NCBI RefSeq assembly: GCF_029590555.1
Contig: NZ_CP081001.1
Span: forward strand, 806,001-870,000
Length of the DNA: 64,000 bases
Direction: 5' to 3'
Source of the DNA: Sphingobium sp. V4
Lineage (GTDB): Bacteria > Pseudomonadota > Alphaproteobacteria > Sphingomonadales > Sphingomonadaceae
The notes under the pieces are model-generated. The model was not told the origin of the DNA. It did not search any database and was given only the letters and a program-made list of their open reading frames with translations. The position numbers were made by a program, and so were the translations under genes. Shown one piece after another: positions 45,250 to 49,125 of this stretch; positions within the stretch are counted from its first letter, which is position 1, and each line of letters starts with the position of its first letter.

Positions 45250-46451
45250 CCGACACCGAAACAGACATCATCATCCGCGTCGCCGCCAAGGGCGACGGCG
45301 TCACCGCCGATGGCCGGCACTTCCCTCTGACCGCGCCGGGCGATCGGGTCGCTCCCGATGGAAGTGTCGTCTTCGGTGTCCATCATGCGGTGCCGCCCTG
45401 CGACCATTTCCCGGCCTGCGGCGGTTGTCAGCTCCAGCATCTGGACGAGGCGAGCTATGCCGAATTCGTCACGGCGCGGGTGACAGGCGCGCTGGACGGG
45501 CAGGGCGTGACGCCGGGCGCGGTGCTGCCGGCCCATATTTCGCCGCCGATGACGCGGCGGCGCGCATCGCTGCGCGCGGCGCGGGCGGGCAGGCGGATCA
45601 CCATCGGCTTTGCGGAGGAGGGCAGCCACAAGCTGATAGACTTGCAGATGTGCGCGGTCCTCGATCCCAGGCTGTTCGGGCTGCTGCCGCCCTTGCGGGA
45701 ACTGCTCGGGCTGATCGTGCCGGACAAGCGGGCGGCGCATGTCCGCATGTCGCTGACTGATCAGGGTGTCGACCTGTTGCTGGAGGGCGTGAAAGTCGCG
45801 GGGCTGGCGGCGGATGAGGCGCTGGGCGATTTTGCGCGCGAGCATGGCCTGGCCAGGTTGGCCATCGACGAAGGCGACGGGCCGCAGACACGCTGGGAGC
45901 CGGAGGCGGTGACGGTCAGCTTCGGCGGGGTGCCGGTCAGCTTTCCGCCTTTCTCCTTCCTTCAGGCCACGCCGGATGGCGAGGCGGCGCTGGTCGGCGC
46001 AGTGCGCGATGCGCTACCGGAGACGGGTGCGGTCGCCGATCTCTTCTGCGGGCTTGGTACATTCGCTCTGGCATTGGGCGAGACGCGGCCGGTCTATGCG
46101 GCCGAGGGTGCGCGGGACGTCCTGTTGTCGCTCAAGCTCGGCGCGGCGCGGGCGCGGCGGCGGCTGGTGGCCGACCATCGCGACCTGTTCCGTCGACCGC
46201 TGACGCCGGAGGAATTGAACCGCTTTGCCGCCGTCGTGCTCGATCCACCGCGCGCGGGCGCGCGCGAACAAGTGCTGCAACTGGCGCAGTCGGCTGTGCC
46301 GCTGATCGCTTATGTGTCCTGCAATCCTGCCAGTTTTGCGCGGGATGCGGCGCATCTGGTGGCGGCGGGCTACGTCCTTGAGAGCGTCAAGCCGGTTGGC
46401 CAGTTCCGCTGGACCACTCATGTCGAACTGGTCGGCATCTTCCGGCGATAA
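45246..46451 (+). CDS. RumA/TrmA-like 5-methyluridine RNA methyltransferase (GTG start)
   Basis: 401 aa from GTG 45246 (overlap 4 bp). Fe-S ligands C-DHFPACGGC...MCAVLD near the N-terminus, SAM fold ADLFCGLGTFAL, catalytic Cys in YVSCNPASFARD and Glu near the end. It methylates a uridine in 23S rRNA or tRNA; the specific position cannot be read. The TRAM domain is short. Ends at a bidirectional hairpin. Confidence 0.9.
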   Translation: MTDTETDIIIRVAAKGDGVTADGRHFPLTAPGDRVAPDGSVVFGVHHAVPPCDHFPACGGCQLQHLDEASYAEFVTARVTGALDGQGVTPGAVLPAHISPPMTRRRASLRAARAGRRITIGFAEEGSHKLIDLQMCAVLDPRLFGLLPPLRELLGLIVPDKRAAHVRMSLTDQGVDLLLEGVKVAGLAADEALGDFAREHGLARLAIDEGDGPQTRWEPEAVTVSFGGVPVSFPPFSFLQATPDGEAALVGAVRDALPETGAVADLFCGLGTFALALGETRPVYAAEGARDVLLSLKLGAARARRRLVADHRDLFRRPLTPEELNRFAAVVLDPPRAGAREQVLQLAQSAVPLIAYVSCNPASFARDAAHLVAAGYVLESVKPVGQFRWTTHVELVGIFRR

Positions 46452-46485
46452 AAAATCCCTCGCCGCAAAGGAGGCGGCGAGGGAT
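46450..46485 (-). terminator. Terminator between the RumA-like gene and the decarboxylase gene
   Basis: A perfect 12-bp stem ATCCCTCGCCGC/GCGGCGAGGGAT (46455-46466 with 46474-46485) and a 7-nt loop, followed on the minus strand by six T. Main terminator of the leftward polyamine cluster; it overlaps the RumA-like stop and can also stop rightward transcripts. Confidence 0.88.
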
Positions 46486-46507
46486 GGAAATCATTTTGCG
46501 GGGCGGG

Positions 46508-47713
46508 TCAGCCCAGCTTGATGACGGTTGCGCGACGGCGCGGCTGGACGGTCTCGGCATAGAGGCTGGCCATCGGCTCATCCCCCACCTCGATCGTCGA
46601 TTCCGACGTGAAGCCGTTGAAACCGGTACGCATTGCCGCGCCATAGGCGCCGAGCATTCCGATTTCGATATAGTCGCCCGCCTTCACGTCCGCAGGAAGC
46701 ATGAAGGGGCCGACCATATGGTCCATGTCGTCGCAGGTCGGGCCGTAGAAGGAGAAGCCTTCCAGCTCTTCTTCGCTGTCATCCTCGCGCAGCAGGGCCA
46801 CGGGGAAGCGCCAGCCGATATGCGCGGCATCGAACAACGCGCCATAGGCGCCGTCGTTGATGTAGAGTTCGGTGCCGCGACGGCGCTCCACCCGCACGAT
46901 GATCGAGCTATATTCGGCCGACAGCGCGCGGCCGGGTTCACACCACAGTTCCGACGAATAGCTGACCGGCAGGCTTTCGAAGCCGCGATGGATCGCCTCG
47001 AAATAATTTTCGAGCGCCACCGGCTCCATGCCCGGATAGATGGAAGGGAAGCCGCCGCCGACATCGATGATGTCGACCGTGACCGCCGCATCGACGATCG
47101 CGGCGCGCACGCGCTCGATCGCATCACTATAGGCCTGCGGCGACATGGCCTGGCTTCCGACGTGGAAACAGATGCCCAGCGCATCGGCGGCCTGGCGGGT
47201 CGCCATCAGCAGTTCGCGGGTTTCGCCCAGTTCGACGCCGAACTTCGACGCGAGGCTGAGTTCCGAATGTTCGGATGACACGCGCAGGCGGACGCACAGT
47301 TCCAGATCGGTCGCATCGCCGGTCGCGCGCATGATCTTTTCCAGCTCGTCGATCGTGTCGAGCGAGAAGGTTCGCACGCCATGGACGTGGTAGGCTTCAG
47401 CGATCGCTTCCTCGGCCTTGACCGGGTGCATGAAGCAGAGCTTCGCCTTGTCGCCTGCGACATCGGCCAGCGTTTCGGCCACCAAGCGCACTTCAGCGAT
47501 CGAGGCCACATCGAAATGCGTGATGCCCGATGCAAAGAGCGTGCGGATCAGGTCGGGAGACGGATTCGCCTTGACCGCATAGAGCGATCGGCCCGGAAAC
47601 TTCTCAACGAAGAAACGGGCGGCCCGAGCCGCGGCTTCGGGACGAATCAGCGTTACCGGTGCTGCCGGTGTGAGGGCGGTCGCTACCCCCAGCGCGCTAT
47701 GATGCTTGTGCAA
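46508..47713 (-). CDS. Ornithine/lysine decarboxylase, alanine-racemase fold (TTG start)
   Basis: 401 aa. Fold-III PLP decarboxylase: Lys48 in LYAVKANPS binds PLP; DVGGGFPSIYPG and WCEPGRALSAEYSSI bind phosphate; the catalytic Cys is in GPTCDDMDH. This is the eukaryote-like ornithine decarboxylase of alphaproteobacteria, some members also using lysine. It produces putrescine for the upstream pair. The only usable start is TTG 47713 with GGAGG 9 nt upstream. A structured leader covers that site. It is last gene of the polyamine cluster, separated by 147 bp. Confidence 0.9.
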   Translation of the reverse strand: MHKHHSALGVATALTPAAPVTLIRPEAAARAARFFVEKFPGRSLYAVKANPSPDLIRTLFASGITHFDVASIAEVRLVAETLADVAGDKAKLCFMHPVKAEEAIAEAYHVHGVRTFSLDTIDELEKIMRATGDATDLELCVRLRVSSEHSELSLASKFGVELGETRELLMATRQAADALGICFHVGSQAMSPQAYSDAIERVRAAIVDAAVTVDIIDVGGGFPSIYPGMEPVALENYFEAIHRGFESLPVSYSSELWCEPGRALSAEYSSIIVRVERRRGTELYINDGAYGALFDAAHIGWRFPVALLREDDSEEELEGFSFYGPTCDDMDHMVGPFMLPADVKAGDYIEIGMLGAYGAAMRTGFNGFTSESTIEVGDEPMASLYAETVQPRRRATVIKLG

Positions 47714-47718
47714 CTCAA

Positions 47719-47824
47719 GGGACCTCCAGTGTAGTTCAGGGCGAAAAGCTGCCTTGCGGTGGAAGTCCCATGGGGCAGCGGACGGCCGATATATGCGGAG
47801 GGGTCCCCCCTGTAAAGCGCATAT
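47719..47824 (-). ncRNA. Structured leader of the decarboxylase mRNA (hairpin plus candidate pseudoknot; speF-leader-like)
   Basis: Reading the minus strand: a first hairpin pairs ATATGCG/CGCATAT (47818-47824 with 47791-47797) with an inner AGGGG/CCCCT stem. Downstream, GCTGCC (47779-47774) pairs with GGCAGC (47753-47748), and GGGACTTCCA (47769-47760) pairs over 10 bp, one G-U, with TGGAGGTCCC (47728-47719). The two helices interleave, forming an H-type pseudoknot, and the last strand contains the GGAGG ribosome-binding site of the TTG-start decarboxylase. Alphaproteobacterial odc genes are known to carry a conserved speF RNA element; identity with it is inferred. Confidence 0.6.
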
Positions 47825-47860
47825 GAAAATTTTGTTGCGCGGCCCGCTACGAAATGTGCG

Positions 47861-49033
47861 TTACGAGAGACGGGTCTTGAAATCGGTATAGGAAAAGGCC
47901 CGGATTTCCTTGAGTTCGTCGGTTTCCGAGTTCCATAACCAGATGGCGGGCAGGGGTACCCCATTGAATGTATTGGTCTTCACCATGGAATAGTGCGCCT
48001 GGTCGAGGAAGGCGATACGCGCGCCCGGTTCCGCGCCGCCGGGGACTCGATAGTCGCCGATGATGTCGCCCGCCAAGCAGGAGGGGCCACCGAGTCGAGT
48101 GACCGGTCCCTCTTCCGGCTCATGGAGCATGGCGGGGCGATAGGGCGCCTCGATCACGTCGGGCATGTGGCAGGTGGCGCTGATGTCGGTGATGGCGACG
48201 GGCATCCCGTTTTCGATCACGTCGAGGATTTCGCCCACCAAGATGCCAGCGTCGAGCGCCATTGCCTCGCCGGGTTCGATATAGAGGGCAAGACCGGTCT
48301 GCGCCTTGATCCTTGTCAGGAAGGCGATGAGATCGTCGATCTGGTAGTCGGCGCGGGTGACATGGTGGCCGCCGCCGAAGTTGAGCCATTTGAGGCCCGC
48401 GACATGAGGCATGATATGGCCCTCAATCGCCGCCCAGGTGCGTTCCAGCGGCAGGAAATCCTGCTCGCACAGATTATGGACATGCAGGCCGTCGACGCCC
48501 TCCAGATGTTCGGGGCGCAATTGGTCGACCGGGAAGCCCAAGCGGCTGTGCGGTTGCGACGGGTCATATTTAGGCACTTCCCCCTCCGGGTGGAGCGGGT
48601 TGAGGCGCAGGCCGATGTCGAAGTTCACACCGTCGCTGCGCGCTGCGTCGATGACGGGTTTGAGTCGCGCGATCTGGCCGGGGCTGTTGAAGATGACATG
48701 GTCTGATATTTTGAGGATTTCGGCCAGGTCGTCGGGCTTGTAGGCGGCGCAATAGGTCGCGACTTCGCCCTGATATTCCTCGCGCCCCAGGCGTGCTTCA
48801 TAGATGCCCGACGCGCAGACGCCGTCGAGATATTCCCCCAGCACGCCCCCAAGCGACCACATGGAAAAGGCCTTGAGCGCACCGAGCACCTTAACCCCTG
48901 CTCGGTCGCCGATGTCGCGCAGGACCGCAAGGTTCCGCCGCACCGCCGCCTCGTCCACCACGAAGGCGGGCGAGGGAACGCGGTAGAGGTCGAATCGGGC
49001 GAAGGCGGCAGGATCGCCGGCGCGGGTTTCCAT
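47861..49033 (-). CDS. nspC: Carboxyspermidine (carboxynorspermidine) decarboxylase
   Basis: 390 aa from ATG 49033. Alanine-racemase-fold PLP enzyme related to DAP decarboxylase: PSPAFVVDEAAVRRN at the N-terminus, PLP lysine in VLGALKAFS, GGGHHVTRADY, and the late LDQAHYSMVKT. With the adjacent dehydrogenase it makes spermidine (from putrescine) or norspermidine (from diaminopropane). In alphaproteobacteria the spermidine version is the established one. An inverted repeat separates it from the dehydrogenase gene. Confidence 0.92.
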   Translation of the reverse strand: METRAGDPAAFARFDLYRVPSPAFVVDEAAVRRNLAVLRDIGDRAGVKVLGALKAFSMWSLGGVLGEYLDGVCASGIYEARLGREEYQGEVATYCAAYKPDDLAEILKISDHVIFNSPGQIARLKPVIDAARSDGVNFDIGLRLNPLHPEGEVPKYDPSQPHSRLGFPVDQLRPEHLEGVDGLHVHNLCEQDFLPLERTWAAIEGHIMPHVAGLKWLNFGGGHHVTRADYQIDDLIAFLTRIKAQTGLALYIEPGEAMALDAGILVGEILDVIENGMPVAITDISATCHMPDVIEAPYRPAMLHEPEEGPVTRLGGPSCLAGDIIGDYRVPGGAEPGARIAFLDQAHYSMVKTNTFNGVPLPAIWLWNSETDELKEIRAFSYTDFKTRLS

Positions 49034-49046
49034 AACAACATACTCC

Positions 49047-49125
49047 GTCACCCCGGCAAAGGCCGGGGTCTCAGGCGAGAGGGCACGGCGTCGCCGCATG
49101 AGATCCCAGCCTTCGCTGGGGTGAC
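49047..49125. repeat. REP-like inverted repeat between the two polyamine genes
   Basis: Arms beginning GTCACCCCGGC and ending GGGGTGAC (49047-49073 with 49099-49125) match at 23 of 27 positions around a 25-bp spacer. Each arm is itself a small hairpin (CCCCGGC...GCCGGGG and CCCAGC...GCTGGG). This GTCACCCCGG-type element is a familiar dispersed intergenic repeat in alphaproteobacterial genomes. Confidence 0.75.

Follow-up and report, generated by a model that had tools for sequence, protein, structure and literature searches.

An odc1 leader with a conserved pseudoknot and an overlapping 11-codon reading frame ahead of a Sphingobium decarboxylase gene

Introduction

Compact pseudoknots are typical of translational riboswitches such as SAM-II and preQ1-II, and autogenous pseudoknots over the Shine-Dalgarno (SD) sequence exist for ribosomal proteins. 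Regulation through a nascent chain or a stalled ribosome is represented by SpeFL and TnaC.

The odc1 motif (uORF-25-1), reported in RNA Biol. in 2021 from 272 examples, precedes a decarboxylase gene in alphaproteobacteria and combines an extended stem that contains the ribosome-binding site (RBS), a pseudoknot, two UUG codons and an upstream open reading frame (uORF) of 11 residues (PMC8632094). According to the text of that paper, lacZ fusions made with an example from Sphingomonas echinoides demonstrated that both starts are used in Escherichia coli: the uORF start gave about 3 times the expression of the main start, both were higher in minimal medium, and either was largely eliminated by mutation of its own start codon (PMC8632094). 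In mutants M4-M6, altered at strictly conserved sites directly preceding the pseudoknot nucleotides, main-ORF expression was lost, and M4 and M5 had little effect on the uORF (PMC8632094). The published lacZ levels are modest and come from the surrogate host E. coli; the literature searched yielded no odc1 expression data from a sphingomonad, and no later odc1 paper was among the openly licensed ones listed.

The speF RNA (RF00518) is likewise a leader found in alphaproteobacteria ahead of a decarboxylase of the same superfamily. Its fold joins a stem, which may hold a four-stem junction, to a long bulged stem-loop with about 80 conserved nucleotides, and binding of six pathway compounds was not measurable in the experiments described (PMC1273637).

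Locus and identity of the leader

The window analyzed here is a stretch of 64,000 nucleotides from Sphingobium sp. V4, and all features described below lie on its minus strand. The decarboxylase gene (46508..47713), which starts with a UUG codon at 47713-47711 (UUG2), is of the ornithine/lysine decarboxylase type: lysine/ornithine decarboxylases are the top-scoring solved relatives of its product, none of the NCBIfam models reaches its cut-off, and the ornithine/lysine type of substrate is predicted from the gene context and the text of the odc1 paper. An identical protein occurs in Sphingobium sp. TCM1. Because the named carriers of the gene include Sphingobium, Novosphingobium, Sphingomonas and Sphingopyxis, we take the family of the window (f1) to be Sphingomonadaceae.

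As the preliminary description had it, a gap of 147 bp (47714-47860) separates the decarboxylase gene from the gene upstream, a carboxynorspermidine decarboxylase-like (nspC-like) gene at 47861..49033, whose start we picked within an ORF spanning 47861-49099 and whose TIGR01047 score of 372.9 bits does not reach the cut-off of 409.05. A carboxynorspermidine synthase-like gene is also among the neighbors, again under its NCBIfam cut-off. These genes point to the formation of spermidine-type polyamines via a carboxy intermediate, which suggests a range of ligand candidates wider than the compounds tried on speF. Read along the minus strand, the elements are, in order, TTTACA, 17 nt, TATATC, 8 nt, GCTGCC, GGGACTTCCA, CCGCAA, GGCAGC, a variable stretch, TGGAGGTCCC, TTG, AG and TTG. 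Beyond the decarboxylase gene, at 46448-46514, a match to NsiR1 below threshold (21.3 bits; cut-off 39) resembles a terminator hairpin.

The leader is the already known odc1 motif, as judged from the text and figure legends of the published description (PMC8632094). The RBS lies in the 3' shoulder of a stem (47769-47760 with 47728-47719), the 5' end forms a pseudoknot with the loop (47779-47774 with 47753-47748), two UUG codons stand two nucleotides apart, the uORF encodes the 11 residues MSCTSIIARWG, and the gene downstream is, by its sequence relatives, of the ornithine decarboxylase type. Nothing in the window departs from the description in that text. Relatives show features that the text either reports as not seen or does not cover. 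Their uORFs can be 9, 10 or 22 codons long or can stop at TAA or TGA, the two starts can be AUG/AUG or GUG/UUG, hairpins may be added within the loop or ahead of the SD sequence, and promoter-like hexamers keep a nearly constant spacing to the pseudoknot.

Samples and taxonomic range

Relatives of the decarboxylase occur in 58 of 61 near genomes at E <= 0.001, some only weakly, and in 379 of the 397 genomes of the family at E <= 1e-100. The comparisons below use 165 family loci with a readable start region, the window's own included, with three genomes (G061, G196 and G251) present twice. Left out were a locus at a contig end (L008), ten loci of other families that lack the start pattern, one other-family locus with a different arrangement (L110) and repeat fetches (L057-L059). 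Of 11 loci that belong to other families in the order, seven gave no tblastn match; their genomes were covered by the model search only.

When a covariance model built from the leader was run on 196 genomes of the order, with stricter filters that lose weak matches, it found one match in each of 111 genomes, all of them members of f1. Among the 20 listed of the 85 unmatched genomes, two belong to f1 (G114 and G134) and 18 to other families; from the listing order, the other 65 are taken to belong to other families as well. G114 is the source of locus L144, discussed below. In G134, both the decarboxylase gene and the leader are missing, and no relative of the decarboxylase was found at E <= 1e-60 in the four genomes of its genus (g96) that were tried (G134, G201, G254 and G330). 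Across 385 alphaproteobacterial genomes, the model matched all five f1 members and one of the 380 others (G629, locus L198; E = 6.5e-4); by eye, the printed stretch of the latter holds no such leader, and we took the match as chance. An exact-pattern search matched only three of the five family members among its 385 genomes.

Conservation and covariation of the pseudoknot

The leader can form two interleaved helices. Helix a (called the "pseudoknot" helix in the odc1 paper) joins GCTGCC (47774..47779) to GGCAGC (47748..47753) by six perfect base pairs. In helix b (named "P1" in the odc1 paper), the anti-SD strand GGGACTTCCA (47760..47769) faces TGGAGGTCCC (47719..47728) over 10 bp, one G-U included, and the latter strand covers the SD sequence GGAGG at 47727-47723. 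Together, they make an H-type pseudoknot ahead of the UUG-started decarboxylase gene. The linker CCGCAA (47754..47759), which precedes the 3' strand of helix a, is near-invariant; on our reading of the published text, the M4-M6 positions lie in it. The preliminary description had already placed the 6-bp and 10-bp helices here and noted that the second sequesters the GGAGG of a TTG-started gene; both helices are present at these positions and conserved, and helix a covaries.

The minimum-energy fold of the leader includes helix b, but its energy has a z-score of -1.73 and 14 of 200 shuffles fold equally well, so that fold energy alone is weak evidence for structure. Conservation and covariation among homologs, on the other hand, argue strongly for the pseudoknot. 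In an alignment of 43 leaders drawn from 92 non-redundant ones, helix a has 257 of its 258 cells paired, and three of its six pairs have changed on both sides (UA>AU, UA>CG and CG>UA), a count reached in 2 of 500 shuffles; none of the 500 has as high a covariation score. With the partner strand slid by 1-3 columns as a control, 18-52 per cent of cells are paired. The UA>AU change, labelled in three rows, falls in at least two places on a tree of 58 decarboxylases, and in locus L050 helix a is altered to GCAGCC/GGCTGC, a compensating change. Because one of our helix a placements maximized pairing, which biases its shuffle control, we relied on the other parsing and on the 43-leader alignment.

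Helix b covaries as well, though less. Of 140 distinct leaders, 135 could be parsed by motif; in these, pairs 1-9 form in 130-135 leaders and the terminal pair in 104, and pair 7 is UA in 94, UG in 32, CG in 7 and unpaired in 2. At pair 1, the four A-C cells include wrong pattern placements (L009 and L122, by eye). The helix stays paired although the SD strand varies from GGAGG (110 of 165 leaders) to GGGGG (55 of 165). The other five distinct leaders have a different 5' strand, and by eye a pairing with the SD sequence can be drawn in four of them (L061, L109, L132 and L142) and is doubtful in the fifth (L141). Covariation in both helices, which the preliminary description had named as a check on its proposal, is clear for helix a and fainter for helix b, and with the conservation it supports a conserved cis-regulatory RNA able to hide the SD sequence of the decarboxylase gene.

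Ten of the 165 leaders were not parsed: two are cut off (L006 and L171), six are unusual (L102, L107, L123, L128, L135 and L143), L148 carries a long insertion, and L144 has no recognizable core. Optional hairpins can be seen by eye at two places, as CCCC-N-GGGG within the helix a loop (L097, L102, L106, L123, L135 and L143) and as TGCCGCAAGGCA/TGTCTCACGACA-like hairpins right before the SD sequence (L040, L045, L046, L049, L051, L056, L066 and others).

An extension of the structured RNA into the coding region was considered and, for the first 12 codons, set aside. RNAalifold draws helices there; across its whole structure, helix a holds the only pair in which both sides have changed. A possible helix between GCTGCCCC and GGGGGTAGC of the gene fails in L050, where the change of helix a has no matching change at that site. 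The first decarboxylase codons are nearly invariant in nucleotides within the window's genus; in distant clades, the nucleotides of the first 12 codons change while the decoy stop described below stays, a pattern that two overlapping reading frames explain better than an RNA structure does.

Promoter and transcript start

The preliminary description had placed a double-stem hairpin at the 5' end of the leader (~47825-47790). The inverted repeat is present in the window, but it overlaps a promoter-like arrangement, with a -35 hexamer TTTACA (47811..47816), a 17-nt spacer and a -10 hexamer TATATC (47788..47793). These hexamers recur in relatives, where the inverted repeat, judged by eye, is often not kept; the repeat should therefore lie outside the RNA and is probably the promoter. 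A best-hexamer search, run without a shuffle control on 150 distinct upstream regions, chose TTTACA in 106, TATATC in 74 and TATATG in 28; the spacer is 17 nt in 104 and 16 nt in 36 (16-17 nt in 140), and the best -10 hexamer ends 6-10 nt ahead of helix a in 148. A strict consensus promoter scan of 47600-48000 found nothing; it demands T at the last -10 position, which here is C.

From this spacing, the transcript probably begins at the 5' end of helix a, with a predicted start at ~47779-47782. According to the preliminary description, a start downstream of 47780 would refute its proposal; the predicted start is borderline with respect to that position, yet it falls at the 5' end of helix a.

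A conserved overlapping reading frame

The most unusual part of the leader is a second start codon, UUG1 (47718-47716), which was absent from the preliminary description. It belongs to the sequence UUG AG UUG (47718-47711), in which two nucleotides separate the two UUG codons. UUG1 follows GGAGG by 4 nt and UUG2 by 9 nt, so that the two starts lie 5 nt apart and in different frames. UUG1 opens ORF1, here called the decoy (47683..47718), an out-of-frame ORF of 11 codons (MSCTSIIARWG) that overlaps the start of the decarboxylase gene and ends at TAG (47685-47683).

The decoy stop falls at codon 12 in 158 of the 165 loci (149 TAG, 5 TAA and 4 TGA). Exceptions are five loci from three genomes with 9 codons, one locus with 10 codons (the two lengths together account for six loci from four genomes) and L144 with 22; L144, the sole leader without a recognizable core, is also without the codon-12 stop. 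Under synonymous recoding of the decarboxylase, with per-locus codon usage plus a pooled prior, a codon-12 stop is expected in 6.0 per cent of cases on average, and among distinct N-termini it is found in 113 of 117 against 7.5 expected. A scan of named genomes, which overlaps the 165-locus set, gave 80 leaders, two of them cut off, and all 78 readable ones have an 11-codon decoy (60 TAG and 18 TGA). At all nine TAA or TGA loci of the main set, the next decarboxylase codon begins with A, a context in which the chance of a stop is 0.36-0.68, compared with 0.00-0.13 in other contexts; since that chance is already high, these loci and the 18 TGA leaders of the scan add little.

Among 109 distinct starts, decoy residues 4, 7, 8, 10 and 11 and the stop vary less than the decarboxylase protein alone predicts (none of 200 null sets is as low), and no constraint above the null was seen for residues 5, 6 and 9. 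This constraint may act on the peptide or on nucleotides at the RNA level; it is possible that the codon-12 stop and the decoy residues are also nucleotides under RNA-level constraint. Residues 9-11, beside the stop, differ widely among clades. An A at the start of decarboxylase codon 2 would place a decoy stop at codon 3, and that codon starts with C, T or G in all 165 loci, a weak test given that the null holds only 0.9 stops per 109 starts. Overall, the decoy frame is conserved past the constraint of the overlapping gene, and comparison among relatives demonstrates that it is kept by selection. Comparative support for the frame now exceeds that given in the text of the odc1 paper.

The start pair is UUG/UUG in 161 of the 165 loci, AUG/AUG in three (L086, L107 and L148) and GUG/UUG in one (L061). 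L086 and L107 are sisters on the decarboxylase tree (support 87/82), and the AUG/AUG pairs may represent a single event. In five loci (L064, L066, L068, L072 and L077), the decarboxylase carries an insertion of about 10-20 residues in the region after the decoy stop, and its DNA can, by eye, be folded into a local hairpin, for example CAAGGCTGTCAGCAGCCTTG in L068. Two other coding arrangements were rejected: a frameshift from ORF1 into the decarboxylase, as by eye no slippery sequence is kept at the end of ORF1, and an ORF starting with AUG at 47771, a codon that is AAG in many relatives and has no SD sequence seen before it.

Comparison with speF

The preliminary description had taken the leader for a member or relative of speF, an assignment that the searches contradict. 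No match was found by Rfam 15 in 47690-47900 (E <= 10) or in 10 relatives; annotation relying on Rfam would consequently be expected to miss odc1. The speF model found nothing in the window's own genome either; the control genomes of that search were also silent, and its positive control is a search of 385 alphaproteobacterial genomes drawn in the same manner as those above, in which RF00518 matched 14 genomes and none of the five f1 members, all of which the leader model matched. The two RNAs differ in sequence, size and fold, occur in different families of the class and do not cross-match, and the decarboxylases encoded at 12 fetched speF loci are only ~27-32 per cent identical to that of the window.

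Downstream of the RF00518 match and ahead of the decarboxylase start, several of these speF leaders (L199-L210) have a GCG(C/T)CTCCA-CGCG-like block that apparently lies outside the Rfam model. It is complementary to the SD sequence in some of them (GTCTCC/GGAGAC in L205 and L206) and not in all, so not consistently, and it may correspond to a conserved block left unassigned in the 2005 description of speF.

Discussion

We consider it likely that the odc1 leader spans about 70 nt, has its own promoter and uses a pseudoknot to gate an SD sequence shared by the decoy and decarboxylase starts. The H-type pseudoknot of helices a and b would hide the only SD sequence, and upon opening of helix b, 30S subunits would reach both UUG1 and UUG2 through it. 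Ribosomes that start at UUG1 would translate the 11-codon decoy, which ends inside the gene, and be lost to the decarboxylase; those at UUG2 would make the enzyme. Output would be set first by whether helix b is open and second by the split of ribosomes between the two starts. The selective loss of main-ORF expression on mutation suggests that the conserved pseudoknot nucleotides favor UUG2, and a signal from polyamine metabolism may shift either the opening of helix b or the split. A further step, which we regard as somewhat unlikely, is that an RNA conformation under metabolite control directs ribosomes into either the dead-end decoy or the decarboxylase, in which case regulation would act on start choice in addition to SD access.

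Such an arrangement resembles two known kinds of system in part. SAM-II and other small translational pseudoknot riboswitches also have an H-type pseudoknot able to cover the SD sequence; in odc1, however, two out-of-frame starts share that sequence. The enterobacterial speF gene, which encodes an ornithine decarboxylase, is likewise preceded by a short ORF, speFL, but speFL lies upstream and works by arrest, whereas the odc1 ORF starts 5 nt ahead of the main start and runs across it.

The pseudoknot could itself be the aptamer of a metabolite riboswitch, in which binding of spermidine, putrescine, ornithine or a carboxy-polyamine switches the SD sequence or the start choice. The preliminary description had likewise proposed that the leader senses a polyamine or a precursor. 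It is compact and associated with one pathway gene, its unpaired nucleotides are near-invariant (CCGCAA, and CC before helix b), and the odc1 authors propose a riboswitch as one possibility (PMC8632094). The text of their paper reports no ligand, however; the single match in each of 111 genomes offers no second target gene that would hint at one; and speF, a distinct RNA that precedes a gene of this kind, gave no measurable binding with six compounds (PMC1273637). We hold a riboswitch to be possible, with its chances somewhat below even.

Alternatively, helix b and start choice might be controlled not by a metabolite but by a protein, be it the decarboxylase itself, initiation factors or S1. 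The autogenous pseudoknots of ribosomal proteins offer a precedent, and the joint absence of gene and leader from G134 is consistent with such control, which we nevertheless think unlikely.

The decoy peptide could also act as the sensor, if UUG2 is blocked or promoted by the nascent chain or by a ribosome that stalls at the decoy stop. Its length is fixed in 158 of 165 loci, five of its residues are constrained beyond the decarboxylase frame, and the geometry suggests that a stall at codon 11-12 would make a ribosome overlap with one that initiates at UUG2. Unlike in known arrest peptides, however, residues 9-11 vary widely between clades, and in the published text M4 and M5 affect main-ORF expression and leave the uORF almost unaltered (PMC8632094); we judge a peptide sensor to be quite improbable. 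Membership of the leader in the speF family has next to no probability, given the negative model searches at the leader, in its genome and in relatives and the different build of the RNA, even though gene type and bacterial class are the same.

The decoy frame is hard to dismiss, with a codon-12 stop in 158 of 165 loci where 6 per cent would be expected. The natural variants found among the relatives, namely AUG/AUG start pairs, 9-codon decoys and a lineage without both core and stop, make the idea of start choice directly testable.
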